A stretch of 64,000 nt of DNA, taken from the NCBI GenBank assembly GCA_023664305.1, contig JAMPFT010000003.1, positions 124,001 to 188,000 of the forward strand, written 5' to 3'. Positions 3,250 through 54,321 of this stretch are shown here, piece by piece. Numbering within the stretch: position 1 is the first letter of the stretch; each line of letters starts with the position of its first letter. The notes below the pieces were generated by a model that ran no database searches, had not been told where the DNA came from, and saw only the letters and a program-made list of their open reading frames with translations. A program made the translations under genes and the position numbers. Origin of the DNA: a bacterium. Its GTDB lineage: Bacteria > Bacillota > Clostridia > Lachnospirales > Lachnospiraceae.

Positions 3250-3875
3250 TTCTGCACCTCCTGCTCCTCCGCTGCGGTTCCGGACAGCTCTTTCCGCTCC
3301 CGGCTTCCGTCTGCAGACGTCTTTCCCCTCTCTTCCGCTGCGTCAGACTGTTTTTGCTCCGCCGCGGTTTCAGGCTGCTTCCCGCGCTCTTCCGCCGCTT
3401 CAGTCTGCTTTTGCTCCGCTGCGGTTTCAGGCTGCTTTCCCCTCTCTTCCACCGCTTCCGTCAGCTTTTGCTTCTCCACGGTTTCAGGCTGCTTCCCGCG
3501 CTCTTCCGCCGCCTCAGTCTGTTCTCCATGCTCCCCGGCACAATCCAGCGTTATCCTCCGATAGTGCTTTTCTCCCTCTTCATCCGTGGTCACTTCCAGC
3601 CTCGCGATCAGGTGGGAGGACACGGGAGAGGAAAACCATAAAAACACAATGACCAAAAACAGCTTCAGCGATACAAAATTCAGCCCGTTCATCACGATCA
3701 GCCCCACCAGACAGCTGCCCAGTCCCAACGTATCGCCCATGGCCGCCGCGTGCATCCTGTTTAACACATACCGGAACCGAAAAACTCCTATCATCTCGAT
3801 GACAAAGATCGCGATGCCGCCCAGCAGAAACGCCGCGCCTGCCAGAAACCGCGCCCACTCAATCAACGCCGTCAT
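3246..3875 (-). CDS. mrpG: MrpG-like antiporter subunit with repetitive charged tail
   Basis: Residues 1-110 are an ordinary MrpG/MnhG protein: three helices, including the segment FRFRYVLNRMHAAAMGDTLGLG (about 31-52), a family hallmark. Residues about 118-209 are an extra hydrophilic tail built of four 19-residue repeats of the form TEAAEERGKQPETAAEQKQ, ending in a charged stretch. Typical MrpG proteins are 100-130 residues, so the tail roughly doubles it. Its role is unknown; it would face the cytoplasm or surface after the third helix. The start overlaps the mrpF stop. The domain call is sure; the biological meaning of the tail is not. Confidence 0.87.
   Translation of the reverse strand: MTALIEWARFLAGAAFLLGGIAIFVIEMIGVFRFRYVLNRMHAAAMGDTLGLGSCLVGLIVMNGLNFVSLKLFLVIVFLWFSSPVSSHLIARLEVTTDEEGEKHYRRITLDCAGEHGEQTEAAEERGKQPETVEKQKLTEAVEERGKQPETAAEQKQTEAAEERGKQPETAAEQKQSDAAEERGKTSADGSRERKELSGTAAEEQEVQK
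3291..3518 (-). repeat. 57-bp tandem repeat (four units) in mrpG
   Basis: Four in-frame 57-bp units begin at 3518, 3461, 3404 and 3347 (minus strand). The middle two are nearly identical at protein level; the last is degenerate. Each encodes a 19-residue Glu/Gln/Lys-rich unit. The number of units is likely variable between strains (inference). Confidence 0.8.
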
Positions 3876-8544: not shown

Positions 8545-10305
8545 TCACTTCATTTCGTTCGCCATTTGGTACAGATTGTAATAAATTCCCTTCTGCTCCA
8601 TCAGCTGACCGTGATTTCCTTCCTCAGCGATGCCCTCCTCCGTCAGCACCATGATCCTGTCGGAGTTGCGGATCGTAGACAGGCGGTGGGCCACCGTGAG
8701 GGTCGTCCGCCCTTCCGAGAGAGCCGCCAGAGATTTTGCCACGGCGTACTCGCTCTCGTTATCCAAAGCGGAGGTCGCCTCATCCAGAATGATAATCGGG
8801 GAATCCTTCAGGAAAACCCTTGCGATACTGATTCTCTGCTTCTGTCCCCCGGAAAGCTTGACGCCCCGCTCCCCGATATAGGTGTGGTATCCGTCCTTCA
8901 GCTCCGTGATAAATTCATGGGCCCCGGCGCGTTTGGCCGCCTCTACCACCTCTTCCATGGATGCGCCTACCTTGCCGTAGCTGATATTTTCAAACACCGT
9001 CCCCGAAAAGAGATAGACGTCCTGCTGTACCACGCCGATGCTGCGGCGCAGGCTTTTCAGCGTCAGCTCCTTTATATTTTTGCCGTCAATATAAATATTC
9101 CCCTCCGTCACATCATAAAATCTGGGGATCAGGTTGCAAAGCGTCGTCTTTCCTCCCCCGGAGGGGCCCACCAGCGCCACCTTTTCACCCGGGCGGATCT
9201 GCAGATTCAGATGACGGAATACCTGATTATGATCGTCCGGGTATTCAAAGCTGACGTCCTCAAAGACGATATTGCCCTTCGGATCCTTCAGCTCCACCGC
9301 GCCCGGCTCGTCAAAGATGTCGATATCCGCGTCGATGATCTCCAAAAAGCGCTCGATTCCCGTCATACCCCTTTGAAACTGCTCCGCAAACTCTATGATC
9401 CGGCGGATCGTCGCGATAAAGGTAGACACATACATGATATACGCCACCAGGTCGCTGGGATTGATGGAACCGCGGATCACGCATAGCCCCCCTACCACCA
9501 ACGTGGCCAAATACATAACGCCGTCAAAAAATCTCGTGGAGCAGTGAAACATTCCCATGTACCGGTAGCCGTGTTTCTTGATCTGGTACAGCTTCCTGTT
9601 ATCCTGTTCAAACTTTTCGTTCTCTACATCCTCGTTTGCGAACGCTTTTACCACCTTCTGCCCCAAAAGGCTGTCCTCGATTCGTGCATTCAGCTCGCCG
9701 ATCTGAACCCGCTGCTGGCGGAAAAGAGCCCTCAGCTTCAGGTTCAGTCTTCCGCAGACTCCGGTCATCACCGGGATAATGCAGAAAATCAGCACCGTCA
9801 ACGGCACATTGATGGAACAGAGGATTGCAAAGGACGCCACGCCCTTGATGCCCGCAATGAAAAATTCCTCCGGACAGTGGTGCGCAAATTCCGTCACATC
9901 AAACAGGTCGTTGGTGATACGGCCCATGATCTGTCCCACCTTCGTGTTGTTATAATAGGTATTGGAAAGCTGCTGCAGATGAGCATAGGCGTCCCGGCGC
10001 ATATCCGTCTCCATATCCACGCCCATGACATGTCCCGTGTAGGACATATAATAATAAGCCGCCACGTCGATAAGCCGCAGGACCAGATACAAAACACCCA
10101 GCCTGGCGATGACTCCCGCCGTCAAAAGAGCGATATTCTGCGTCGCTTGGTTGGTGATATAACGGATGATCAGCGGCAGCACAATCTCACAGATTGTCGT
10201 CAGCGCCGCGCAGAACAGATCCATGCACAACACCTTCACATGTCTCTTATAATAGGGGAGAAATCTTTTGATCAGCTGCCCTGACGTATATTTTCTTTCG
10301 CTCAT
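8545..10305 (-). CDS. ABC exporter (fused permease and ATPase)
   Basis: A 586-residue half-transporter of the MsbA/multidrug exporter type. Residues 1-310 hold six helices in the ABC exporter membrane fold. The ATPase domain has Walker A GPSGGGKTT (about 372), Q-loop in VVQQDVYLFSGTV, signature LSGGQKQR (about 478) and Walker B IIILDEATSALD (about 498). It probably works as a homodimer because no partner half is adjacent. The ATG at 10303-10305 overlaps the stop of the channel gene by 4 bases, so it is translated with the RyR/TrkA-N pair. Its substrate is unknown; the family ranges from lipids and drugs to peptides. Confidence 0.9.
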   Translation of the reverse strand: MSERKYTSGQLIKRFLPYYKRHVKVLCMDLFCAALTTICEIVLPLIIRYITNQATQNIALLTAGVIARLGVLYLVLRLIDVAAYYYMSYTGHVMGVDMETDMRRDAYAHLQQLSNTYYNNTKVGQIMGRITNDLFDVTEFAHHCPEEFFIAGIKGVASFAILCSINVPLTVLIFCIIPVMTGVCGRLNLKLRALFRQQRVQIGELNARIEDSLLGQKVVKAFANEDVENEKFEQDNRKLYQIKKHGYRYMGMFHCSTRFFDGVMYLATLVVGGLCVIRGSINPSDLVAYIMYVSTFIATIRRIIEFAEQFQRGMTGIERFLEIIDADIDIFDEPGAVELKDPKGNIVFEDVSFEYPDDHNQVFRHLNLQIRPGEKVALVGPSGGGKTTLCNLIPRFYDVTEGNIYIDGKNIKELTLKSLRRSIGVVQQDVYLFSGTVFENISYGKVGASMEEVVEAAKRAGAHEFITELKDGYHTYIGERGVKLSGGQKQRISIARVFLKDSPIIILDEATSALDNESEYAVAKSLAALSEGRTTLTVAHRLSTIRNSDRIMVLTEEGIAEEGNHGQLMEQKGIYYNLYQMANEMK

Positions 10306-12107
10306 GTCTTTTCCTTTTCTTTTTGTCGATCCTCCCAATATGCCGCCAGCGCTCCCAGAAGCTCCCAGGCGTAATCATCCTTTGCCTGTTCCTCGGGAGT
10401 CAGCCGGTCAAAGGGGCGTATGTCGGGATGAAGTCTGAGGATATTGTCCCGCACGGGAGCATACTGCCAGCCCCACAGGGCGTAAAACCGCATCCACCGA
10501 AAATGCTCTATCTCCCGGTAAAGATAACACTTTTCTTCTTTTGTGTCCAGATAACGCTGATAGGCTGCCTTACAGTTCTCAGCGGTGAGGGCCGGTATCC
10601 CGCCGTCCTCCAGCAAAAATCTCACCTTTGTGAGAAGATGATCCGCCGCCGACCGGTTGGAGCTGCGGGCAAATTCCCCGAGCTCTTCCCAGCGGGAGAC
10701 ATTGCCGCCCGCGCTTTTCCGATATATTTCGTGCATGGCTCTGGCCGCCTCGTCCTGTTTGGTCCGCAGCACCAGATCGCCGGTAAAAATCTCCCGATCC
10801 GTTCCGAATACATTCATCCCCTCCGACGGGCAGGACAGCCGCAGCCAGACAGCGCCCTTTGCCGCAAAATAACGGCAGAGCACCCGGTATGCCTCCAGAT
10901 TTTCTTCTTCCCTGTCAAAGCAGAAAATAATGCGGTCAGCCCCGGCCAAAAGAGCGGCGTCCGTCTCCCAGTTTTCGGCATGGAACCACACTTCGTCCCC
11001 GTCCGAAGCCACGCAGCCGTCCTGTGAATCGACGCTTTCCAGGGCTTCGAGACTTCCCTGCATTCCGATTTTCTCCAGAGCTTCGCGACTTCCCTGCGTT
11101 CCTGACTTCTCCAACGCTTCGGGACTTTCTTGCATTCCTGACTTCTCCAATGCTTCGAGACTTCCCTGCATTCCGCGCTTCTCCAACGCCTCAAGACTTC
11201 CCAGCACACCGTCCTGCCCGGAGCCGGGAGCCTTCACCTTTAACACCTCTTTTAAATAGGGGTGCCGCCGCAAAAAGTCCTCATCCCCGAAAACATGATA
11301 AACCGCCACCCGGTCATTTCCACACACATTGACCGTCAGGGCCTGCTCCAAAAGGGCGGAGCCGTAACGCCCGCCGCCGATTAAAAGCACCTTTTTCTCT
11401 TCCTTTTTCAGCGGATAACGCTGCCAATACAGTCTGGCGCAGCAGTCCCAGCGGTTAAAAAGGATCAGATTTTCCGGGACGTGGTCCGGCATAAAAAGCG
11501 TCTGGCAGCAAACCTTCGCGCCAAGAGAAACCGCCTCAAGCGCCCGGTTATAGTTGGAAAGACTGTCCGGCCCCATGACCAGCAGAGTACACCCTGACAG
11601 ATTCCCCTTTATTTTCGGGATGTCCGTAAAGTCTCCCGCCAGCCGGAAGCAATTCCGGCTCAAATGCAGAACGGAATCGGAATCCGCTTTCCCGCTGCAG
11701 AATACCGCTATGGCTCCGGGCTGCTCCGCCGTCAGGTTCTCCGCCAGGGCCGCCGCCTCGGGAGTTTCCCTGTCAAAGACATACCACACACGCCTGCGTC
11801 TCCTCCTCAGCTGCAGCCACGGCAGCAGTCTGCCCATCATCAGGGACACGGCAGCACCGATCAGCAAAGCCAGCAGTCCCGTGCTGAGCAGCAGAAATAT
11901 CACTCCGATAATGCGCCCGAGAACCGTCACGGGATAATAGTCTCCGTATCCCGCCGTGGTAAGCGTCACCAGGGAAAACCATGCCGCTTCCCCCACGGTG
12001 GTGATCGTAGCCTCCGGGGAAAAGGATTCCACAAAGACCAGAAGCCGCAGCGCAGCTCCGTAACAGCCCAGCATCAAAAGGACAGAAATCCACTGTTTTT
12101 TCTTCAA
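10302..12107 (-). CDS. Two-helix K+ channel with TrkA-N and RyR domains
   Basis: A 601-residue protein. Two N-terminal helices flank a pore loop whose filter TTAGYGD (about residue 50) matches the TVGYGD potassium filter. Then come a basic stretch, a Rossmann-like TrkA-N region with GGGRYG (about 241), a linker of five 12-residue repeats (about 302-362), and a C-terminal RyR domain (about 525-580) with HFRWMRFYALWGWQYAP and HPDIRPFDRLTPEEQ, which closely fits the ryanodine-receptor repeat pattern. The likely start is TTG at 12105-12107 behind GGAAGGG, seven bases after the previous stop; a TTG at 12146 is possible. A ligand-gated K+ flux role is inferred; the ligand is unknown. Confidence 0.82.
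   Translation of the reverse strand: MKKKQWISVLLMLGCYGAALRLLVFVESFSPEATITTVGEAAWFSLVTLTTAGYGDYYPVTVLGRIIGVIFLLLSTGLLALLIGAAVSLMMGRLLPWLQLRRRRRRVWYVFDRETPEAAALAENLTAEQPGAIAVFCSGKADSDSVLHLSRNCFRLAGDFTDIPKIKGNLSGCTLLVMGPDSLSNYNRALEAVSLGAKVCCQTLFMPDHVPENLILFNRWDCCARLYWQRYPLKKEEKKVLLIGGGRYGSALLEQALTVNVCGNDRVAVYHVFGDEDFLRRHPYLKEVLKVKAPGSGQDGVLGSLEALEKRGMQGSLEALEKSGMQESPEALEKSGTQGSREALEKIGMQGSLEALESVDSQDGCVASDGDEVWFHAENWETDAALLAGADRIIFCFDREEENLEAYRVLCRYFAAKGAVWLRLSCPSEGMNVFGTDREIFTGDLVLRTKQDEAARAMHEIYRKSAGGNVSRWEELGEFARSSNRSAADHLLTKVRFLLEDGGIPALTAENCKAAYQRYLDTKEEKCYLYREIEHFRWMRFYALWGWQYAPVRDNILRLHPDIRPFDRLTPEEQAKDDYAWELLGALAAYWEDRQKEKEKT
11022..11201 (-). repeat. 36-bp tandem repeat (five units) in the channel gene
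   Basis: Five in-frame 36-bp units encode 12-residue copies of GSLEALEKSGMQ with small changes. They sit in a linker inside the cytoplasmic part and keep frame, so copy number could vary without breaking the gene. Confidence 0.85.
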
Positions 12108-12114
12108 AATAAGG

Positions 12115-14007
12115 TTACCCTTCCTTTCCCTGCGCCCTGACCCCAAGTCCCGCCTTCAAAACCTTCGGCAGAATCAACACGTTATTGCGATCCATCGCCT
12201 TATAGTCCACACTGCCGCCTGTGACGGCGTTTTCCGCCGCGGAAAGAGCGTCCAGCTCCTCCCAGGGGATCAGACAGGCGTGCAGATGATGCTCCATATC
12301 TTTTCCGATCCGCAGCGTGCTGCTGCCGGATTCCTCTTTCTGAGCGCGGTATTCGGCGCTGCGCTCCTCAAAGACTTCCCTGCTCATGCTCTCAAAGCCC
12401 ATCACATAGTGAAAGGCGCACCAGCGCAGATGCTCCGTCCGGCTTAAATTTTCCAGCTGCTCTTCTGAGAACTCCCATTCCCCCGCGAGCACCTGTTCCG
12501 CGGTTTTTCCCGCCGCGCGCATCACGGCAGGAATAAAATCCGCCGCTGCCCGGCTGCTGTTGCGGCTGAAATAATCGCAAAGGGCCCAGTTTTCCGCCGC
12601 AGAACGCCCATTGCCCTCGCAATAGCACTGGTTGAACGCCACCGCCATACGGTCCAGCGCGTCGGTACAGAGAATATCCGGCGTATAGATACCCTTCTTG
12701 ATGACCGGGCAGCCCACTCCGGCATGGCTGACAATCCCCTGATAGGAGCACTGGTAGATCGCCGCCCTGCAGTTCAGGCGGGTGAGATACCGGGTAAGCT
12801 CGTCGGCAATTTCCTGATTCAGTCTTTGTACGCCGGTACACACCACGATATACCGCAGCTTCCTGCGGCGCTCGAAAAGATATTGATACATCTCCTGACT
12901 GCGGCCGTCAAAAGGATAAAACTCAATCGCATACTGCTCGGTCAGTCCGCGGCTGTAGCTCATCAGACTCCCGTTCACCTGCCTGCAATCCGGCGAAAAA
13001 ACAGTCAGCCGGAAATTACTGCCCTCGAACTGTCCGTTCATTACCAGCTGGCGCAGAACCGCCTGCCCTACCTGACCGAACCCGATCACAAGCGCCTCGA
13101 AATCCTGCTTTGCCCGCCCGTCGGAACCGAACTCCACCGCGCCGCAGGGCGGATATTCCCGCACCAGCAGCCGCGCCGCAAGGCTGGCGGCGTCAAAGGC
13201 CATAACGCTGCCGTAGCCGTAATTCTCCCCCAAGGCCTGAAAAACACCCGCATCCGTATCCTCCGCGCAGGAAAGCACCAGACTTGTCTGGGAGGCGGGA
13301 ATCCCTTTTTGCTGCAAAGCATTCATCAGAGCCGACGCATACTGTAAATTCAGGGCAGGATCCTTCTGCATGGCGTACACTGTCAGCCGACGGCCCGGTC
13401 GCATGCCGACGCCGCGCAGAAATGAAAGATTGGGCGACACCGCATTTGCCGCGGTAAACAACACCCCTCCCATAGCGGAGATATCCGCGGTAAACGCGGA
13501 GGCCGACTGGTTATCCACAAAAATCAGGGCCCGTCTGCCCTGCTGCTGGCTGAGCTTTTTGCCGAAGGAAACGGAATCCGCGTCCACGCCGTAAATGATA
13601 TCCAGATTGCCCCGGTAAATCAAAAGCAGACGCAGACGGCGCAGCGCGCCTGCTCCGATGGTCGTAAGAGCCGCGCTGGCGGTGGCGTACAGCGCGAACA
13701 AATGGATCAGCCAGAAAAAGACCTGAGCGGGATAATGCGTAAAAAGCGGCGTTCCGCTCACGGCCGAAAAATCGTTCCGCCCTAAAAACATTCCCAGAGA
13801 AGCCTGTACCGCCCGCACCACTGCAAGCGGAATATATCCGGTCTGTTTTGAAAAGCCGTAACCGTAAGCAAAAAAACCGCCCAGCGCCGCCAGCACTGTA
13901 GCAGCGCCGGTGAGCCGAGCAGCGTTTTTACGGCTGGCCACCAGCCCTACCACCATCGCCAGAAATCCAACCGCGGTAAACAAAATCACCGTAATACTGA
14001 TCCCCAT
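12115..14007 (-). CDS. Membrane TrkA-N/RyR domain protein
   Basis: A 630-residue protein with three N-terminal helices (about 3-25, 31-51, 94-117) but no potassium filter. Two Rossmann-like regions follow: one around DIIYGVDADSVSFGKKL (about 135) and one with ALVIGFGQVGQAVLRQL (about 300-316), a clear GxGxxG nucleotide-binding loop. The C-terminus (about 515-595) has SRTEHLRWCAFHYVMGF and HHLHACLIPWEELDALSAAE, a RyR-like domain as in its neighbour. The ATG at 14005-14007 gives the first helix directly; the ribosome site (GGAAAGG) is loosely spaced. It heads a three-gene unit with the channel and exporter, and probably forms a heteromeric sensor-channel with the channel protein (inference). 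Confidence 0.78.
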   Translation of the reverse strand: MGISITVILFTAVGFLAMVVGLVASRKNAARLTGAATVLAALGGFFAYGYGFSKQTGYIPLAVVRAVQASLGMFLGRNDFSAVSGTPLFTHYPAQVFFWLIHLFALYATASAALTTIGAGALRRLRLLLIYRGNLDIIYGVDADSVSFGKKLSQQQGRRALIFVDNQSASAFTADISAMGGVLFTAANAVSPNLSFLRGVGMRPGRRLTVYAMQKDPALNLQYASALMNALQQKGIPASQTSLVLSCAEDTDAGVFQALGENYGYGSVMAFDAASLAARLLVREYPPCGAVEFGSDGRAKQDFEALVIGFGQVGQAVLRQLVMNGQFEGSNFRLTVFSPDCRQVNGSLMSYSRGLTEQYAIEFYPFDGRSQEMYQYLFERRRKLRYIVVCTGVQRLNQEIADELTRYLTRLNCRAAIYQCSYQGIVSHAGVGCPVIKKGIYTPDILCTDALDRMAVAFNQCYCEGNGRSAAENWALCDYFSRNSSRAAADFIPAVMRAAGKTAEQVLAGEWEFSEEQLENLSRTEHLRWCAFHYVMGFESMSREVFEERSAEYRAQKEESGSSTLRIGKDMEHHLHACLIPWEELDALSAAENAVTGGSVDYKAMDRNNVLILPKVLKAGLGVRAQGKEG

Positions 14008-14189: not shown

Positions 14190-16508
14190 CTAAAAATCCA
14201 GATCCAGCATTTCCAGATAACGGTATCGCTTCCAGATTGCGCTGTACGCTTCTTCGGTCACCTGTATGTCATCTATCCAATAGTCCGTGACATAATCTTC
14301 CCCCAGAAGGTAATCGACACTCTGACAGGACAAGATCTGTTCCGCCGCATTTTCTCCCAGCGCGTAAAAATTAGTGCGGGATCCGTTCAGCTCATAGATA
14401 CGCGTGTCGGATCCGGTCGCCCCTGTCGCCTCCCAGCTGCCCCTGATTCCCAGCATCCTTTTCCCCGTCTCCGTGTCGTACCAGAACCGGATCCGGTTGC
14501 CTCTTTCCGCACCGCCGGTCTCGTGTCCCAGCACCAGCTCCGTCAGCTTACCGTCCCTGAGTAAAAAGAAGCCGCTTTCGGAGAGATAACCACTTTCCGG
14601 CGTGGGCTGCGCAAAAAAGCTTAAGACTACTTCGCCGTCTATCAGGTACAGCTTGTTCAGTCTGCGGTACGTCCTGAAATCGTCAAACGCCACCGTGCGT
14701 TCCTCCCCGCCGTTTTCCTTTACCGTGACCGCACCGCTTTTCAAAAACTCCAGATATTCCCCCGCTCTGGGCGTGATGTGGTTTTGAAAAAGGAGCTTCT
14801 GCAGTTGGGTGCTTTTCTCCTCTTCCTCATCCGTATTGACCAGAAGGCTCTCGATCCCCTCTTCGCCTCGTCGGATCAAAGCAATCACCTTTTCGCTGTA
14901 GCCGTCCGCGGTGATCTGGCGGCAGACCGGCTCCAGCAGCGTCTCTCCCCTCTCGTCCAGGAAACCGTATTTGCTGTCTTTTACCGTCAGGTATCCTCTC
15001 CCCCTGGCATAAATCACATCATACAGTCCCGATGCAATCAGCTTGTCTTCCCTGTCGTACAACGCTGTGATTTTCTCTGTCCGAATTGTCAGGGACCCGT
15101 TCTCCAGCAGCCTGATCCGACCGTACCTCGCAGGAATCTCCAGATTACCGTCTTTGTCGATCACCCCGTATTTTTCATCCGTCCTTACATAAGCCCTGTC
15201 TCCCTCAAAGAATGATACATAGGTATAGAGCTCGGGCTCGGTATCCCATTCGTCTTCCCTGGAAAAGGCAAGATACCCGTACTTCCCGTCCACCTTTACA
15301 GTGAATCCTCCGGACTCGCAGAAAATATCGTCATACGCAAAAGGAATCCTCGTCCTTCCTTCATAATCCACCACGCCGTAAAATCCGTCAAGCTCCATAA
15401 TCACAAGCTCTTTTCCCGGCACCGGATCGAGATACTCGTATTTCGGCTCGAAAAGCACTCTTCCCTCCGAGTCGATAAGTCCTTTTCCCTCTTCTCCCGT
15501 AACCGTAAAAAGCCCGTTCCTGATATAGATCCAGTCCCAGCCTTCCTCCATGCATTGTCTGCCCGTCTCGTCAAAGCAGTATTCCAGCCCGTCCTTCTGC
15601 ACGATAATATAGCCGTCCTTCCTTACGGTGATCGCGTCGTACTCCGGCGGCAGAATCTCCTCCCCGTCTCTTCCGATCATGCCATACATCCCGTTTCGTA
15701 TGACCTTTGCCAGTCCGTCCTGAAAATGCCCCGCGTCCTCATAAACCGGCTCCGCTATGATTTTTCCTTCCGTATCCATATAACCGTACAGTCCGTCTAC
15801 GGTAAAATACGCTCTCCCCTCCCAAAAGGAGCTGACGCTGTCGCAGTCCGGCTGCAGAATCACGTTCCCCTCGTGATCCATAAATCCGTACTCTTCGCCG
15901 ATGCGAAAATAAGCCAGCCCGTCCGTAAAGGGGGCCGCCTCGTCATAGACAAAGGGAAGCACCGTCTCTCCGTCCATTCCGATAAAGCCGTATTTCCCGT
16001 GAGACCGCACGCAGGCAAGTCCCTCCGAAAAAGGATAGGCCTCCTCGAAAAGAAAAGGACTGATTTCTTCTCCCTCCGCCGTGATAAAGCCGTAACAGGA
16101 GCCGTCGTAAATACAGTAACAGCCCTCGGAAAACGCAACCGTACATTCCCGCAGATCCATCGGAATCACGGCGATCTTCGGGTAAGGAAGAGGATCCTGC
16201 TCCGGCGGGCGGCTGATTCCCGCCTTTTTTTCCTTCCATCTCTGCCAAAATTCCGTCAGTCTTTTTTCTCTGACGGCGGGATCCCTCTGATCTGCCGCAA
16301 CCTCCTCGCCGTCGGTCTGTGCCGTTTCCTGCTCGGCCGCAATCTCCTCGCCGCCGGTCTGTGCCGCATCTTGCCCCGACGCAGGATTTTCTTCCTCTGC
16401 CTGCAGCTCTTTCTGCTGTTCCGGCGGATTCTCTCCGCCGCATCCCGTTAAAACGGCCATGCAAAAAAGCATGGCCGCACACAAAGTAATGTTCTTTTTC
16501 TTTGACAT
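14190..16508 (-). CDS. WG-repeat lipoprotein
   Basis: A 772-residue lipoprotein. The signal peptide ends in the lipobox LTGC (Cys 23). A Glu/Gln/Ala-rich low-complexity linker (about 25-85) with a near-duplicate unit (AQTGGEEIAAEQE then AQTDGEEVAADQR) spaces the body from the membrane. From about 120 to 570 there are many WG beta repeats of the kind YGFIxxxGExxxPFxYDxAxxFxxGLAxVR. The last 200 residues are a separate, unrecognised domain. WG repeats usually mediate binding rather than catalysis. It stands between the RyR unit and the kinase and may be co-transcribed with the latter; a 139-bp gap separates them. Confidence 0.85.
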   Translation of the reverse strand: MSKKKNITLCAAMLFCMAVLTGCGGENPPEQQKELQAEEENPASGQDAAQTGGEEIAAEQETAQTDGEEVAADQRDPAVREKRLTEFWQRWKEKKAGISRPPEQDPLPYPKIAVIPMDLRECTVAFSEGCYCIYDGSCYGFITAEGEEISPFLFEEAYPFSEGLACVRSHGKYGFIGMDGETVLPFVYDEAAPFTDGLAYFRIGEEYGFMDHEGNVILQPDCDSVSSFWEGRAYFTVDGLYGYMDTEGKIIAEPVYEDAGHFQDGLAKVIRNGMYGMIGRDGEEILPPEYDAITVRKDGYIIVQKDGLEYCFDETGRQCMEEGWDWIYIRNGLFTVTGEEGKGLIDSEGRVLFEPKYEYLDPVPGKELVIMELDGFYGVVDYEGRTRIPFAYDDIFCESGGFTVKVDGKYGYLAFSREDEWDTEPELYTYVSFFEGDRAYVRTDEKYGVIDKDGNLEIPARYGRIRLLENGSLTIRTEKITALYDREDKLIASGLYDVIYARGRGYLTVKDSKYGFLDERGETLLEPVCRQITADGYSEKVIALIRRGEEGIESLLVNTDEEEEKSTQLQKLLFQNHITPRAGEYLEFLKSGAVTVKENGGEERTVAFDDFRTYRRLNKLYLIDGEVVLSFFAQPTPESGYLSESGFFLLRDGKLTELVLGHETGGAERGNRIRFWYDTETGKRMLGIRGSWEATGATGSDTRIYELNGSRTNFYALGENAAEQILSCQSVDYLLGEDYVTDYWIDDIQVTEEAYSAIWKRYRYLEMLDLDF

Positions 16509-29297: not shown

Positions 29298-29301
29298 ACT
29301 A

Positions 29302-29484
29302 CTCCTGCGCGCCGTAGGAACCGGAGGCGATGCCTTCTTTTCCGTTCCGTTCTTTCCGGCTACTCCTATACGCCATGGGAACCGGAGGCGATGCCTTCTT
29401 TTCCGCTCCGTTCTTTCCGACTGCTCCTATACGCCATGGGAACCGGAGGCGATGCCTTCTTTTCCGTTCCGTTCTTTCCGGCTA
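29302..29484. repeat. 61-bp tandem repeat, three units, between importer genes
   Basis: Units at 29302-29362, 29363-29423 and 29424-29484 differ at only a few positions. Each carries a copy, in part altered, of the last bases of the upstream permease gene (GCGCAGGAGTAG), and a further partial copy at 29485 is the genuine gene end. Confidence 0.9.
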
Positions 29485-30345
29485 CTCCTGCGCGCCGTAA
29501 GGAGCCAGAACCGTCCGCAGATGCTCCCCTAACCGATCTACGAGCAGCACAATCATCACCAGGGCGCATCCGGGCAGTACAGCAGGCCACCACATTCCCG
29601 CCGACAGATACCGCATACTCTCGGACAGAATAATACCGATTGCAGGCTGTTCCGGAGAAAGTCCGAATCCCAAAAAGGAAACGGACGCTTCGTGCAAAAT
29701 CGCATGAGGGAACAGGAGAATTAATCCCACAAAAAACTGCGGAAGCAAATGAGGCAGCAGATGATGTATTAGGATCCACCGGCTGGATTTTCCGAGCCTG
29801 CGGGAGATCGCGATATATTGTCGGGAACGAAGCTGTAAAACCTCTCCCCGGATCAGGCGGGCAAGGCTGCACCAATGCGTAGCCGCAATCCCGATGAGCA
29901 GACCCTTTAAACCCCGTCCCATAGCAAAAGAAATCAAAATGACAAGAACCGTATGGGGAACACTCATCACAAGATCGATCAGCCAGTTGATAAAGGCGTC
30001 CAGGAATCTGGAGCCCGCAGCGGCGGCAATCCCTACAAATACGGCGATCACCGCACTGATCAGGGATGCGGAAAACCCTACCGTCATACTGACCGCCATT
30101 CCCTTAAGGGTTCGCAGGAAAAGATCGCGTCCCAACGCGTCCGTGCCAAAGAAATGCTCTCGGGACGGCGGCTTCCCGGCATTCAAAAAGCTTCCCGCCA
30201 CCGCTTCGTCAGGGATCAGAACTCCCAAAAGATATACGGCAATCACGACGACTGCCAGTATAACCGTCAGAACCAAAACCTTCGCACGGCGGTTCCACGG
30301 AAATTTAAGACCGCTTAAAAAGCGTAATGTCTGTCGTTCTTTCAA
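29482..30345 (-). CDS. Nickel/peptide-type ABC importer permease 2 (NikC/DppC-like)
   Basis: A 287-residue permease of the DppC/NikC family: an N-terminal helix (about 21-40), the conserved HFFGTDALGRDLFLRTLKGM segment (about 62-81) and the inner-membrane EAA-type loop LIRGEVLQLRSRQYIAISRRLGKS (about 165-188). The TTG at 30343-30345 is preceded by GGGGTG; the upstream in-frame ORF reads through a repeat and is not family-like. It ends at TAG 29482, the start of the 61-bp array. Confidence 0.87.
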   Translation of the reverse strand: MKERQTLRFLSGLKFPWNRRAKVLVLTVILAVVVIAVYLLGVLIPDEAVAGSFLNAGKPPSREHFFGTDALGRDLFLRTLKGMAVSMTVGFSASLISAVIAVFVGIAAAAGSRFLDAFINWLIDLVMSVPHTVLVILISFAMGRGLKGLLIGIAATHWCSLARLIRGEVLQLRSRQYIAISRRLGKSSRWILIHHLLPHLLPQFFVGLILLFPHAILHEASVSFLGFGLSPEQPAIGIILSESMRYLSAGMWWPAVLPGCALVMIVLLVDRLGEHLRTVLAPYGAQE

Positions 30346-33170: not shown

Positions 33171-34625
33171 CTACCTCTCTCCATACCCGCATTCTTTTAT
33201 CAGCGATTCCGCCTCAAATATACTGATATTCCGCTCTTCTGCAATACGGGAGAGATCGTCATATTCATACTTTCTGCGCTCCACATCATACCCGGAGGAT
33301 ACCTTACACCTGACGGGACCGTAGGGCGTATCCAGCGTTTCCATCCGGCGGTCCAGCACATAACGGCAAAGCTTATTCTCCCGGATGCCGATTGTTGTCG
33401 TGTTCCTGAAAACAGATTTGATTATCTTCTCCCTGTCGGTCTCACGGCACATTACATGAATGAGAATACCGGGCCTGGACTTCTTCATACCAATCGGAAC
33501 CGTATACACATCCAGCGCGCCGTCCTCAAAAAGCTGCTTCATGGCAAATCCGACGGCTTCCGCGGTCATATCGTCCACATTACAGCTCAGTTCGCATATT
33601 TCACTCTGTACGGCGTATGTTTCACCCCACATGGCACGGATACAGTTCGCCGCTTCAAAATCCTTTTTTCCCATTCCGTAGCCGATAGCTTTCGTTTTCA
33701 TGATCGGCATTTCGGCAAATCTGTCTGCAAAATGCTTCAGCAGCGCGGCCCCGGTAGGCGTACACAGTTCCCCTCGGATGCTTCCGCCGTAGATCGGTAC
33801 ATCCCGCAGAATATGCGCCGTCGCGGGAGCGGGAACCGGAAGAATACCGTGGGCGCAGCGAACCTGACCGCTTCCCACATGAATCGGGGATACCACTACC
33901 TCGTCCGGCGAGAGCCTGTCCATCAGCAGGCAGACCGCTGCGATATCCGCAACGGCATCCATCGTGCCGACCTCATGAAAATGTATTTCTGTCACCGGTT
34001 TGCCGTGAACCTTGCTTTCTGCCTCGGCGATAAGTCTGTAAACCGCCATCACGTCATCGCACACCTTTTGCGGCAGATTCAAATGATCCCTGACAATATG
34101 CTCAATATCGTGCAGGCCGCTGTGATGATGTGTGTGGTTGCCGTCTGTGTGGTCATGGTGGTGATTTGTGTCGTGGATGCAATCCTCGCTGCAACTGTAA
34201 TCATGGGGATGGGCGATCCCGTGGCTGTAATCCTCGCTGCCGTCGTGGTCATGGGAATGGTCCGTGTCGTGGCCGTGGTCTTCGCTGCTGTCGTGGTCAT
34301 GGGAATGGTCCATGTCATAGCCGTGGCCGTCGTGGTCATGGGAGTGATCCGTGTCGTGGCCGTGATCTTCGTGGCCGTCATGGTCATGATTACTGTGCGG
34401 ATATACGTCACAGCTCTCCTCTTCCTCGCCGTTTACCGTCACCGTAACATGCGTTCCCGTAATGCCGCACTTTTCGGAGGACTCCCTGGCAAAACGAACC
34501 GTTGGAATACCGAGAGCGTTTAACTCTTCTATAAACCGATCCGGATCCGGAATCAGCTCAAGCAGTGCTGCAGTGAGCATATCTCCCGCCGCACCCATGG
34601 AACAGTCAAGATAAAGTGTCTTCAA
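33171..34625 (-). CDS. larC: Nickel-pincer cofactor nickel-insertion protein LarC
   Basis: A 484-residue LarC, the CTP-dependent cyclometallase that inserts nickel into the pyridinium bis-thiocarboxylate precursor. The start MKTLYLDCSMGAAGDMLTAAL and the later HEVGTMDAVADIAAVCLLMD (about 219-238) are family signatures. Between them, residues about 78-170 form a very long His/Asp-rich segment with repeated DHSHDHD units, presumably a nickel store. The C-terminal domain (about 340-484) is joined in frame, unlike the frameshifted larC1/larC2 arrangement known from Lactobacillus. It starts 2 bases after the larB stop. Confidence 0.92.
   Translation of the reverse strand: MKTLYLDCSMGAAGDMLTAALLELIPDPDRFIEELNALGIPTVRFARESSEKCGITGTHVTVTVNGEEEESCDVYPHSNHDHDGHEDHGHDTDHSHDHDGHGYDMDHSHDHDSSEDHGHDTDHSHDHDGSEDYSHGIAHPHDYSCSEDCIHDTNHHHDHTDGNHTHHHSGLHDIEHIVRDHLNLPQKVCDDVMAVYRLIAEAESKVHGKPVTEIHFHEVGTMDAVADIAAVCLLMDRLSPDEVVVSPIHVGSGQVRCAHGILPVPAPATAHILRDVPIYGGSIRGELCTPTGAALLKHFADRFAEMPIMKTKAIGYGMGKKDFEAANCIRAMWGETYAVQSEICELSCNVDDMTAEAVGFAMKQLFEDGALDVYTVPIGMKKSRPGILIHVMCRETDREKIIKSVFRNTTTIGIRENKLCRYVLDRRMETLDTPYGPVRCKVSSGYDVERRKYEYDDLSRIAEERNISIFEAESLIKECGYGER
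34105..34400 (-). repeat. His/Asp-rich repeat segment of larC
   Basis: Imperfect in-frame repeats of about 45 bases encode DHGHDTDHSHDHDGHGYD-type units. The opposite strand shows a long open frame only because of this periodicity. Confidence 0.8.
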
Positions 34626-51149: not shown

Positions 51150-51475
51150 AAAAATTCAGTAAAAATCACGTTTTTCACAAAAATAAATTTTTTTGAAAAA
51201 GATATTAACATAGTTATCCACATAAAATCTGATAATAACAGTTATTCACATCCTGTTGATTATTTGTGGATAAATCAAAAATAAACAATGATTATCCTGT
51301 TAAACGAATGTGAAAACAACCCTGTTTTTCCTTTAAAATAAAGGATTTTTTTATTTACAAAAATTATCCACTTATTCACATAAATATCCACACATCTCTA
51401 TGTACAATTTATTTATAAACATATTTATCCACATCCTGTTGATAACTTTATACCTGTTATGTTCATAACTTGCAT
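51150..51475. other. Chromosome origin region (oriC)
   Basis: The AT-rich gap between divergent rpmH and dnaA. DnaA boxes: TTATCCACA at 51214 and 51425, TGTGGATAA at 51265 (opposite strand), TTATCCACT at 51364, ATATCCACA at 51384, and TTATTCACA at 51242 and 51372. Box density, position and flanking genes all fit oriC. The melting region is not defined; the most AT-rich part is 51150-51200 and 51340-51420. Confidence 0.9.
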
Positions 51476-51504
51476 TTGAAATCTAAAAGAATCTATATTA
51501 CAAT
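51476..51504 (+). promoter_or_regulatory. Promoter of dnaA
   Basis: TTGAAA (51476-51481), 17-base spacer, TACAAT (51499-51504), about 48 bases before the dnaA start and beside the last DnaA box, which would allow autorepression. Confidence 0.75.
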
Positions 51505-51552
51505 AGAAACATACTTGCCTCACCGCGTTAATTTATGATAGAAAGGTCAAAT

Positions 51553-52917
51553 ATGGAAGAGATAAAAGAAAACTGGATGACCGTCAAAGAGACAATCAGA
51601 AGAGAATATAATATTTCGGATATTTCCTATCAGACATGGGTGATTCCTCTTGAATTTTATAATGTAGTAGACGATGTGGTAAGTATTATTATTCCGTCCG
51701 ATCAGGCTCACGCGCTCAATTATATTTCTACAAAATATAAGAGCTTTTTTCAGGTTACCCTGACGGAAATGTTTGACCACAATTATGACGTTAAGTTTAT
51801 TCTGGAAAAGGACGTTGTGCGGCCGGACTCCAAAAACCGCAGCACATCCTCCGTCGGCATTTTTTCCAATATTAAATATGAAAACGCCAATTTAAACCCA
51901 AAATATAAATTTGACACCTTTGTGGTGGGAAGCAATAATAAATTTGCGCATTCGGCTTCTCTCGCCGTTGCGGAATCTCCCGGAGAAACCTATAATCCTC
52001 TTTATCTGTACGGGGGACCCGGATTGGGGAAAACCCATTTAATGCATTCTATTGGACATTTTATCCTGGAACAGAATCCGGGAAGGAAGGTCCTTTATGT
52101 AACCAGCGAAGAGTTTACCAACGAAGTAATAGAATCCATCCGAAGCGGTAACGCTGCTTCCATGACAAAGCTGCGCGAAAAATACAGGACGGTAGACGTT
52201 CTCATGGTAGACGACGTGCAGTTCATTATCGGAAAGGAAAGTACCCAGGAAGAATTTTTCCATACGTTTAACGTGCTGCACGCCGCCAGAAAACAGATTG
52301 TGCTCTCCTCGGACAAGCCTCCAAAGGAAATGGAGACTTTAGACGAAAGGTTCCGCTCCCGATTCGAATGGGGACTGATCGCCGATATTCAACCGCCGGA
52401 TTATGAAACCAGAATGGCTATTCTCCGCAAGAATGCAGAATATTACGACAAACACATCGACGAAGAAATTATAAAATATATAGCGACTAACATCAAATCA
52501 AATATCAGGGAGCTGGAGGGAGCCTTTAACAAGATCATTGCCTTCGCCAAACTAAACAAAGTGGATCTTACCATCGATTCCGCAGAAGAAGCCTTAAAGG
52601 ACGTTATTTATCCAAACAAGGCGAAGAAAATCACTCCTACTCTTATTATTAATGTGGTTGCGGATCAGTTTGGAGTAAAACCGGAGGATATTACCTCAAA
52701 AAAGAGAAACTCAGAATTTGTACAGCCGAGGCAGGTCGTCATGTACCTTTGCCGCGAGCTTACGGACGTTTCTCAGGTAAATATAGGAAAAATACTCGGG
52801 AAAAAGGATCACACCACCGTGATACACGGGGTAAAAAAGATAGAATCGGAAATCGAGAATAACGAAGACCTGCGCAACAAAATAGACATTATTATTAAAA
52901 AGTTGAATCCGTCCTGA
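51553..52917 (+). CDS. dnaA: Chromosomal replication initiator DnaA
   Basis: A 454-residue DnaA. Domain I (1-90), a short variable domain II (about 90-110), the AAA+ domain III with Walker A GGPGLGKTHLMH (about 155) and Walker B VDVLMVDDVQF (about 217), and DNA-binding domain IV with DHTTVIHGVKKIE (about 424-436). It opens the origin by binding the boxes upstream. The ATG at 51553 has GAAAGG six bases before it; ATG 51535 lacks a ribosome site. Confidence 0.96.
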   Translation: MEEIKENWMTVKETIRREYNISDISYQTWVIPLEFYNVVDDVVSIIIPSDQAHALNYISTKYKSFFQVTLTEMFDHNYDVKFILEKDVVRPDSKNRSTSSVGIFSNIKYENANLNPKYKFDTFVVGSNNKFAHSASLAVAESPGETYNPLYLYGGPGLGKTHLMHSIGHFILEQNPGRKVLYVTSEEFTNEVIESIRSGNAASMTKLREKYRTVDVLMVDDVQFIIGKESTQEEFFHTFNVLHAARKQIVLSSDKPPKEMETLDERFRSRFEWGLIADIQPPDYETRMAILRKNAEYYDKHIDEEIIKYIATNIKSNIRELEGAFNKIIAFAKLNKVDLTIDSAEEALKDVIYPNKAKKITPTLIINVVADQFGVKPEDITSKKRNSEFVQPRQVVMYLCRELTDVSQVNIGKILGKKDHTTVIHGVKKIESEIENNEDLRNKIDIIIKKLNPS

Positions 52918-53211
52918 AAGTTAACCACATAAAATGTGATTAACCGAAAAATAAAAAGGGAAAAGATGTTGATAACAAAAATGAACCTCCAAAAGCATTT
53001 TCGGGTTATGTTTATAACTTCAGGGTTATTCTGAAGTTATTCTGAAATAATAAATGATTTACCCATTTTCTTTTTCCCTTAAAAATAGTATAATAGAAAC
53101 GGTTATACACATATAAACATCCTTTATTAATGATAATATGAATTTCTTTATCTTTTTATATTATTTTAAGCGCGCAGAAACAGGTTTTCACTGACGAAGG
53201 GAGTTATACAC
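52918..53211. promoter_or_regulatory. dnaA-dnaN gap with palindrome and dnaN promoter element
   Basis: An AT-rich 294-bp gap. A perfect 10-bp inverted repeat ATAACTTCAG/CTGAAGTTAT lies at 53014-53040, and a TATAAT at 53089-53094 without a good -35 is the best dnaN promoter. GTTATACACAT at about 53101 is a degenerate DnaA-box-like site. In Bacillus this gap is part of the bipartite origin. Confidence 0.5.
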
Positions 53212-54321
53212 ATGAAATTAGTTTGTTCCAAATCCAACCTTTTGAACGGAGTACAGATTGTATCCAGGGCAATTTCAAACAAAACTACCATGTCTATTTT
53301 GGAATGTATCATGATAGACGCTTCAAAGGGAATCATTACGTTGACGGCAAACGATATGGATCTCGGAATAGAGACGATTATAGAAGGCAATATCGTTGAA
53401 AAGGGAATGATAGCTCTCGAAGCAAAGATATTTCTTGAGATTGTGAGAAAGCTTCCCGACAGTGATATTACGATAGAAACGGATTCTTCCTACAAGACAT
53501 TTATCACCTGTGAAAAGTCAAAATTCACGATTATCGGAAAATCCGGGGAAGATTTTTCCTATCTTCCGGTGGTGGAGAAAGAAGACAGCATTGAAATCAG
53601 TCAGTTCACCTTAAAGGAAGTAGTGAGGCAGACTATTTTTTCGATCTCGGACAATGACAATAACAAGATGATGACGGGAGAACTCTTTGAAATCAACGAA
53701 AACCAGCTGAAGATTGTTTCTCTGGACGGGCACCGCATCTCCATACGGAAAATAGAGATGAGGGAAAGCTACGCGCCGAAAAAGGTGGTGGTTCCGGGTA
53801 AAACCCTGAATGAAGTAAGTAAAATACTTCCCGGAGGAGCAGACAGCTATGTAACGATTTCTTTCACTTCAAATCACATTGTGTTTGAATTTGATAACAC
53901 GACGGTGGTGTCCCGCCTAATCGAAGGAGAGTATTTCAGAATAGACCAGATGCTTTCCAGCGATTATGAGACAAAGGTTAAAATCAACAAAAAGGAATTT
54001 ATCAACTGTATTGACAGAGCTACGCTCCTTGTAAAGGAGGGCGATAAGAAGCCTATTATCATTAATATCACGGATGGCAGTATGGAGCTGCGCATCAATT
54101 CCATTATCGGAAGCATGAACGAGGATATTGATATCGAAAAGCAGGGTAAAGACCTGATGATAGGCTTTAATCCTAAATTTCTGATAGATGCTCTCCGCGT
54201 CATCGACGATGAATACATAGAGCTTTATATGGTTAATCCGAAAGCGCCCTGTTTTATAAAAAATAATGAGGAGAGTTATATTTATCTGATTCTTCCGGTT
54301 AATTTTTCAACGGTGAGCTGA
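53212..54321 (+). CDS. dnaN: DNA polymerase III beta subunit (sliding clamp)
   Basis: A 369-residue beta clamp with three similar domains. MKLVCSKSNLLNGVQIVSRAISNKTTMSILECIMI is the usual start and the end IYLILPVNFSTVS resembles the PIR/PMR-type hydrophobic C-terminus. It encircles DNA and tethers DNA polymerase. GAAGGGAG precedes the ATG. It stands in the usual position after dnaA. Confidence 0.96.
   Translation: MKLVCSKSNLLNGVQIVSRAISNKTTMSILECIMIDASKGIITLTANDMDLGIETIIEGNIVEKGMIALEAKIFLEIVRKLPDSDITIETDSSYKTFITCEKSKFTIIGKSGEDFSYLPVVEKEDSIEISQFTLKEVVRQTIFSISDNDNNKMMTGELFEINENQLKIVSLDGHRISIRKIEMRESYAPKKVVVPGKTLNEVSKILPGGADSYVTISFTSNHIVFEFDNTTVVSRLIEGEYFRIDQMLSSDYETKVKINKKEFINCIDRATLLVKEGDKKPIIINITDGSMELRINSIIGSMNEDIDIEKQGKDLMIGFNPKFLIDALRVIDDEYIELYMVNPKAPCFIKNNEESYIYLILPVNFSTVS

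Follow-up and report, generated by a model that had tools for sequence, protein, structure and literature searches.

What do three closely spaced minus-strand genes of a Lachnospiraceae bacterium encode, do they act as a unit, and to what might that unit respond? The genes lie in the window (the whole stretch of DNA analyzed, 64,000 nucleotides of contig JAMPFT010000003.1) and follow one another with a 7-base gap between P0001 and P0002 (12108-12114) and a 4-base overlap between P0002 and P0003 (10302-10305), the layout given in a preliminary description of the locus. Their features are as follows.

12115..14007, minus strand: P0001 (630 aa), three transmembrane (TM) helices and a pore-like helix, a tandem RCK body and a divergent RyR domain
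13768..13830, minus strand: P0001 pore-like helix and non-canonical filter-like loop (...MFLGRND...), residues 60-80
13066..13083, minus strand: P0001 GxGxxG loop, GFGQVG, residues 309-314
12133..12465, minus strand: P0001 RyR-type domain, about residues 515-625, with H526, W529, H576 and D606
10302..12107, minus strand: P0002 (601 aa, TTG start codon), a 2TM potassium channel with a tandem RCK body and a C-terminal RyR domain
11940..11960, minus strand: P0002 potassium selectivity filter, TTAGYGD, residues 50-56
11044..11206, minus strand: 36-bp tandem repeat, 4.5 copies, an in-frame insert in P0002
10332..10514, minus strand: P0002 RyR domain, residues 532-592, with H535, W538, H560 and D577
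8545..10305, minus strand: P0003 (586 aa), an ABC exporter, a neighbour of P0002 that is not conserved as part of the unit

P0002 is a potassium channel of the 2TM/P type, matching Pfam Ion_trans_2 at E 2.9e-11 and carrying a T-x-G-Y-G-D filter between its two TM helices. At its C-terminus, which holds a relative of the domain with which animal ryanodine receptors (RyR) bind nucleotides, the Pfam RyR profile (PF02026) reaches E 0.0021 and 18.7 bits, below the gathering cut-off of 27.4 bits; membership in the RyR family comes from homology to solved domains, with E values of 3.8e-9 (6uhi) and 2.4e-8 (35tm). Judging from its residue numbering, 35tm is probably RyDEP, a phage anti-Thoeris enzyme that contacts a cyclic ADP-ribose ligand through H75, W78, H100 and D117 (PMC13232231). 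P0002 residues H535, W538, H560 and D577 align with these four contacts. The likeness is to RyDEP and the RyR/R12 domains of phages and animals, whereas in this system the domain is joined to a channel of a bacterium.

P0001 gives no match to the Pfam RyR profile, and its RyR domain was recognized through a relative. Over 454 columns, the profile of the P0001 family aligns with the P0002 family at a probability of 99.9, and it also aligns, to the C-terminus, with the channel at locus L157 (probability 98.1, E 7e-14), a protein that exceeds the Pfam cut-offs for both RyR and TrkA_N. All four RyDEP ligand-contact positions are aligned in P0001 as H526, W529, H576 and D606, although insertions inside the domain distinguish it from RyDEP and R12. 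The preliminary description holds in seeing P0001 as a three-helix protein with a GxGxxG loop and an RyR-like C-terminus, P0002 as a two-helix potassium channel with an RyR domain, and P0003 as an ABC exporter.

The same description assigned TrkA-N domains to both proteins. While Pfam TrkA_N matches neither at E up to 1, fold comparison finds Rossmann/RCK bodies, with two such domains after the pore as in a tandem-RCK gating ring. The tandem-RCK potassium channel GsuK (PDB 4gx0, 4gx1, 4gx2 and 4gx5) is a close fold match to P0001 and P0002, but the rmsd of 9-11 Å indicates that domain placement differs; both proteins also have an RyR domain at the C-terminus, and the filter of P0001 is non-canonical. 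RyR structures are absent from the matches listed for the two models, in which the RyR region is barely covered. In the P0002 model, pLDDT falls below 50 at residues 296-367, the region of the 36-bp repeat insert, and residues 548-561 are of low confidence. The gating rings of CASTOR/DMI1 and Slo1 differ in belonging to plant and animal channels, and we know of no RyR domain in either.

P0001 and P0002 are adjacent in 10 loci, the window included, so their adjacency is not due to chance. Distances among P0001 proteins correlate with those among P0002 proteins (r 0.79, with none of 5000 permutations as high), although kinship alone could produce this value. Recurring adjacency and correlated distances make a common complex plausible. 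A contig scan dominated by the potassium filter pattern kept 80 loci; eight (L065-L072) match P0002 along its length, and the remaining 72, which by their listed entries alone are short matches, were left out of all counts. Spread by phages or plasmids was considered and rejected: a search of IMG/VR with the P0001 profile gave no relatives, P0002 matched nothing in phages or, at E 1e-12, in plasmids, and one plasmid matched P0001.

An unexpected link is to genes for TIR proteins, a kind known from immunity. A TIR gene lies within 5 kb of the P0001-type gene in 9/25 loci (G028, G058, G190, L070, L071, L072, G940, G958 and a Butyrivibrio fibrisolvens plasmid); among loci with genome counts, the figure is 8/24 against 0.32 expected. 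Some of these neighbours overlap RyR-channel genes on one strand, and L071 has the gene order TIR-P0002-P0001, with overlaps of 4 bases. Left out of the adjacency count were a TIR gene about 9.6 kb away in G004 and an upstream gene at L065, which is cut by the contig end and of which the surviving part matches a TIR-propeller protein outside the TIR domain. When 398 genomes were searched separately with PF02026, ten matched and six of these had a TIR gene within about 2 kb of the RyR gene, against 0.10 genomes expected; DUF4062 proteins near the RyR gene in G516 and G635 were left out of the TIR count. A TIR_2 match over the cut-off is present in 25/25 P0001-type genomes or replicons, compared with 138/299 genomes in the family and 88/291 in the class, in tests that ignore kinship. 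At 16/25 P0001-type loci, some on short contigs, no TIR gene was detected within 5 kb, and in seven genomes of one family in this situation the P0001-type gene adjoins a maturase-like gene. Of the 138 genomes in the family sample that have a TIR, only 9 carry a P0001-type gene, so most TIRs there must do something else.

At the window locus no TIR gene lies near the pair. The genome has four TIR_2 matches, on contigs C42, C11, C22 and C21 and none on the window's contig C33, and its TIR proteins include TIR-TM-LRR and TIR-TM-MORN forms. An aligned Glu is kept in all 21 TIR domains compared, and 9 of the 11 adjacent TIR proteins have TM helices at the threshold used, the protein at L050 falling just below it. 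PADLOC 2023 models returned no family for P0001 or P0002 at E up to 0.1; of 10 TIR proteins compared, 8 had weak matches of the TIR/ThsB type. The earlier idea of a signalling or defence-like module gains support from the TIR link, while its defence role is something we infer.

Read from the sequences, the domain make-up, the recurrence of the pair, the TIR adjacency and co-occurrence in relatives, and the pocket residues point to a reading to which we give a probability of about 0.55: P0001 and P0002 would be two related subunits of a tandem-RCK channel, or two co-regulated channels, with RyR domains that recognize a nucleotide of the ADP-ribose type produced by TIR NADases. Binding at the C-terminal RyR domains would shift the RCK gating ring and open (or close) the P0002 potassium pore, altering membrane potential or potassium content, while P0001 would supply sensors and perhaps another pore of non-canonical type. 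The TIR gene of several relatives sits in the same gene run; in the window genome, TIRs on other contigs would presumably act in trans. The purpose may be phage defence or receptor signalling, and the best reading of the system is Thoeris-like or receptor-like. As in Thoeris, which pairs the TIR protein ThsB with an effector, relatives have a TIR gene next to a putative effector that would respond to nucleotides. Thoeris effectors are described as SIR2-SLOG or macro-domain proteins (PMC11204291), whereas the effector here would be an RyR-domain channel, and the TIR gene is missing from the window locus.

More tentatively, this could be a bacterial pathway of the Toll-like-receptor type, in which membrane TIRs carrying LRR, Sel1, MORN or propeller parts across a single TM helix make the messenger that opens the two-subunit RyR-domain potassium channel. 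Such a TIR-to-RyR cADPR circuit in bacteria would parallel the cADPR-RyR link proposed in animals. If the main reading is right, one branch of TIR signalling in bacteria runs through an ion channel, and RyR domains serve as host-side nucleotide sensors, not only in phage counter-defence. The pair would also offer a small system for testing whether RyR domains gate channels by cADPR isomers, a question left for future work, with regard to animal RyRs, in the RyDEP preprint, which shows ligand binding of the RyDEP type for phage proteins only (PMC13232231).

A rather unlikely alternative is an ordinary RCK-regulated potassium channel pair serving osmotic or pH homeostasis, in which the RCK and RyR domains would respond to common adenine nucleotides (ATP, ADP, NAD+), with TIR neighbours reflecting shared accessory gene regions. 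GsuK has been solved with ADP and with NAD, according to the structure titles, and human RyR3 R12 is described as binding adenine ligands (PMC13232231). Some P0002 proteins also occur unpaired, forming one clade (100/100) with short branches, and only 2 of 11 such genomes have a TIR over the cut-off; G111 and G262, with TIR_2 matches below it, count as lacking one, and G058 is not among the 11, having a pair as well as an unpaired copy. Against this reading, the unpaired proteins have lost one pocket position that paired ones keep. The position of D117 is kept in 0/12 of them against 10/10 paired P0002 proteins, a register to be read with care as the unpaired proteins have an Asp at the next residue, the H, W and H alignments being firmer. 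All four contact positions are kept in 10/10 paired P0002 and 23/25 P0001-type proteins, in favour of the main reading. The relative at L069, which has all four residues, entered neither count; its fetched stretch holds no P0001, but a contig end lies about 1 kb from where the gene starts. The two clades, differing at one aligned pocket position, make a natural control. Overlap of TIR and channel genes on the same strand, and a patchy presence in 9/299 family genomes, also argue against homeostasis.

That P0002 has residues aligned to H75 and D117, which form the catalytic pair of RyDEP, would suit RyR domains acting as glycosidases or as sponges that end a TIR signal, channel opening being secondary, and the phage proteins described include one hydrolase and sponge-type homologues (PMC13232231). 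This we consider improbable: the other homologues reported there either bound or did not bind but showed no hydrolysis (PMC13232231), and fusion to a channel and gating ring seems to fit sensing better. A further possibility, compatible with the TIR-responsive channel we prefer, is that P0001 is a non-conducting regulator tuning P0002. P0001 has MFLGRND in place of a T-x-G-Y-G-D filter and none of the 25 P0001-type proteins, P0001 and 24 relatives, has GYGD in the aligned stretch, so we class it as channel-like only. Its model, though, predicts the order TM, TM, pore-like helix, TM, and no adjacent P0002 was found in 15/25 P0001-type loci, some near contig ends. For the same two reasons, the previously suggested pore loss in one of the partners is not the best reading, a pore-like helix with a different filter-like loop being present. 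Most improbable is a heteromeric ligand-gated channel coupled to an exporter handling the same ligand, for which the P0002/P0003 overlap speaks. The neighbourhood search found no full-length exporter homologue beside related genes in 19 other loci, and the fetched stretches of six exporter-orthologue loci (five congeners, one from another family) held no pair; the G1023 exporter comes after the gene run that also precedes it in the window, but the pair is absent there. With pair and exporter together at no other locus examined, P0003 was rejected as part of the unit, and with it the proposed conserved triple.

The 36-bp repeat of P0002 is absent from the 22 aligned relatives, one of which, the L065 protein, has a shorter, unrelated insert at its site.

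The three consecutive genes, and the repeat within the second of them, lie in the window as follows.

8545-14007, minus strand: the run of P0001, P0002 and the ABC exporter P0003; P0001 and P0002 are separated by 7 bases, and P0002 and P0003 overlap by 4
12115-14007, minus strand: P0001, the channel-like protein
10302-12107, minus strand: P0002, the K+ channel, with an Ion_trans_2 match (2.9e-11) and the filter TTAGYGD
11044-11206: a 36-bp tandem repeat, an insert within P0002

The C-terminus of P0002 matches the RyR domains in the solved structures 35tm (E 2.4e-8) and 6uhi (E 3.8e-9), and its Pfam RyR score of 18.7 bits lies below the cut-off of 27.4. A Pfam search gave no RyR match in P0001; in profile comparison the P0001 and P0002 families align over 454 columns (probability 99.9), and the P0001 family also aligns, as far as the C-terminus, with the RyR/TrkA_N channel of a relative (98.1), which itself scores 65.9 bits for RyR and 55.3 bits for TrkA_N. 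The repeat insert of P0002 is missing from all 22 aligned relatives (14 and 8, in two alignments), and L065 has a shorter insert of different sequence at that site. Further tandem repeats, their units 24 to 61 bases long, occur at 3323-3521, 16287-16366, 29299-29489 and 34172-34374 of the window. Directly upstream of P0001, 14190-16508 encodes a protein with 6 WG-repeat stretches (E 1e-65) whose start resembles that of a lipoprotein; at E 0.01 Pfam matches nothing else in it, hence no TIR.

Of 299 family genomes, 9 contain a P0001 match (E at most 1e-5; own genome counted) and 16 a P0002 match at E up to 1e-15, the matches in G013 and G231 being divergent RyR channels; eight more P0002 relatives were added from a scan of named genomes. 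Ten of the 23 P0002-type loci, the window among them, adjoin a P0001-type gene (paired), 12 do not (unpaired), and one (L069) is near a contig end. P0001-type genes are also present in 13 of 341 genomes of the class sample, 11 of them new, and on a Butyrivibrio fibrisolvens plasmid, giving 25 loci in all (9 family, 11 class, 4 named-genome scan, 1 plasmid). The named relatives are all Clostridia, six of the nine being Lachnospiraceae, and the family genome searches found neither P0001 nor P0002 in the congener G022. At L195-L201, which represent seven genomes from a single family, the P0001-type gene sits near a SCIFF maturase-like gene, and at several also near secDF-like genes (both names assigned by reading); no adjoining TIR was found at these loci. 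Pairing of the two subunits is supported by their adjacency and by the correlation of P0001 with P0002 distances (r 0.79, 0/5000 permutations as high), although kinship alone could also yield such a correlation.

The preliminary description had made the exporter a partner of the channel pair, a proposal that the neighbourhoods contradict: a full-length P0003 homologue adjoins these genes in 0 of 19 other loci. Conversely, P0001 and P0002 are absent from all six P0003-orthologue loci in the 14-17 kb stretches examined (60-83% identity; five loci from the same genus, one from another family), and in G1023 the exporter is preceded by the same gene run as in the window, but the pair is missing. 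P0003 is a local neighbour of the pair.

A TIR gene lies within 5 kb of the P0001-type gene in 9 of 25 loci (G058, G190, G028, L070, L071, L072, G940, G958 and the B. fibrisolvens plasmid, where the upstream protein is annotated in the record as toll/interleukin-1 receptor). Genome counts exist for 24 of the loci, and among these adjacency was observed 8 times vs 0.32 expected from random placement, a null that ignores accessory-gene clustering. In G058, L071, L072, G940 and G958 the genes are consecutive on the same strand, overlapping or separated by a few bases, as measured from longest ORFs, whose true starts may be later. Their order is P0001, P0002, TIR in G058 and TIR, P0002, P0001 in L071; a small RyR gene separates the P0001-type and TIR genes in G958, and in L070 the TIR gene is convergent to the pair.

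The Pfam RyR family (PF02026) was matched in 10 of 398 phylum genomes vs 0 of 14 control genomes. Six of the ten (G261, G403, G430, G596, G612, G680) have a TIR within about 2 kb of the RyR gene, where the same random-placement null expects 0.10; G596 and G680 are congeners. The remaining four are G207, the window's genome, G516 and G635, of which the last two lack a TIR_2 match but encode a DUF4062 protein close to the RyR gene. Several further arrangements were seen. In two congeneric genomes (L161 8019-11647, L162 7977-11602) an RyR-domain gene and a TIR gene share 4 bases, and a Pfam search gave no other match in the L161 RyR-domain protein. Two RyR-domain genes, one channel-like and one with an AAA domain, flank a TIR gene at L163 8812-14066. 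An RyR channel and a neighbour with weak DUF4231 or SLATT-type matches accompany a DUF4062-TPR protein at L157 7486-14517 and two TIR genes at L159 6497-15411. Stand-alone RyR proteins, about 96-99 aa long, are encoded in bacterial genomes beside or near TIR genes, at L203 9328-9627 and in G261 (L164) and G612 (L165).

Across genomes, TIR_2 exceeds the cut-off in all 25 P0001-type genomes or replicons, the plasmid among them, on a background of 138/299 family, 88/291 class and 4/14 control genomes. Fisher tests that ignore kinship gave 8e-4 for the family (9/9 P0001-type genomes with TIR) and 3e-7 for the class (12/12), the latter limited to P0001-type genomes identifiable in the class TIR sample (smaller than the one searched for P0001), and with seven class genomes bearing P0001-type genes from one family. 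Of the 138 genomes in the family that bear a TIR, 129 lack a P0001-type gene, and therefore TIRs there mostly serve other ends. Among genomes with unpaired P0002 alone, TIR passes the cut-off in 2 of 11, with weaker matches in two more, and none of the 12 fetched stretches around unpaired P0002 contains a TIR.

The aligned Glu, which we take to be the catalytic residue, is kept in 21/21 TIR domains. Of the 11 TIR proteins encoded next to a P0001-type gene or to the G013 RyR channel, nine carry a single strong hydrophobic helix C-terminal to the TIR domain, in most cases flanked by basic residues towards that domain; in L050 the helix is just below threshold, and in L203 it is missing. On the far side these proteins have Sel1 (L048, L072), LRR/DUF285 (L071), MORN (L062) or propeller-like parts (L050, L070, L180; all weak matches), and by the positive-inside rule these repeats would face outward. 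No such helix was found in four TIR proteins whose neighbours are more distantly related RyR genes (L159, L161, L163, L165). The window's genome encodes four TIR proteins, all on other contigs: L168 (TIR-TM-LRR), L169 and L171 (both TIR-TM), and L170, of a different class. The TIR of L169 shares 45-48% identity with the L070 and L050 TIRs, and the TIR region of L171 is 91% identical to the TIR-MORN protein adjoining the G013 RyR channel; we take L171 to be of that kind.

Excerpts of a preprint on RyDEP, a phage RyR-domain anti-Thoeris enzyme, report that RyDEP and six of eight homologues tested bind 2'cADPR and 3'cADPR, with H75, W78, H100 and D117 as ligand contacts in RyDEP (PMC13232231). 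In our alignment all four positions are kept in 10/10 paired P0002 and in L069, and the D position in 0/12 unpaired P0002. That position is D577 in P0002, counted gap-free from a conserved Leu; most unpaired proteins carry an Asp at the next residue, as does P0002, and the register is therefore provisional. P0001-type proteins have all four aligned residues in 23 of 25 cases, with D606 agreed by two alignments. In the tree the unpaired P0002 form a monophyletic clade (100/100) with short branches, and the paired P0002 branches are long. Among five RyR channels that are more distantly related, two (G403 and G516) deviate at H100 and D117 and yet have TIR (G403) or DUF4062 (G516) nearby, which weakens a simple pocket-residue rule.

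The most likely reading is a two-subunit RCK channel whose RyR domains would sense an ADP-ribose-type nucleotide that the TIR proteins would produce. Its output may be receptor signalling, favoured by the outward-facing repeats, if real, or abortive defence, favoured by patchy presence. Among the papers listed in searches of an open-licence library, none describes TIR genes coupled to RyR-domain channels in its title or abstract opening, and the excerpts of the RyDEP preprint (PMC13232231) concern phage proteins and do not mention bacterial channels of the P0001/P0002 kind.

Elsewhere in the window, 51171-54321 is a likely chromosome origin, with a change of sign in the GC skew near 52 kb; both ORFs were named by reading their translations.

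51171-51433: cluster of DnaA-box-like sites
51535-52917: dnaA-like ORF
53212-54321: dnaN-like ORF
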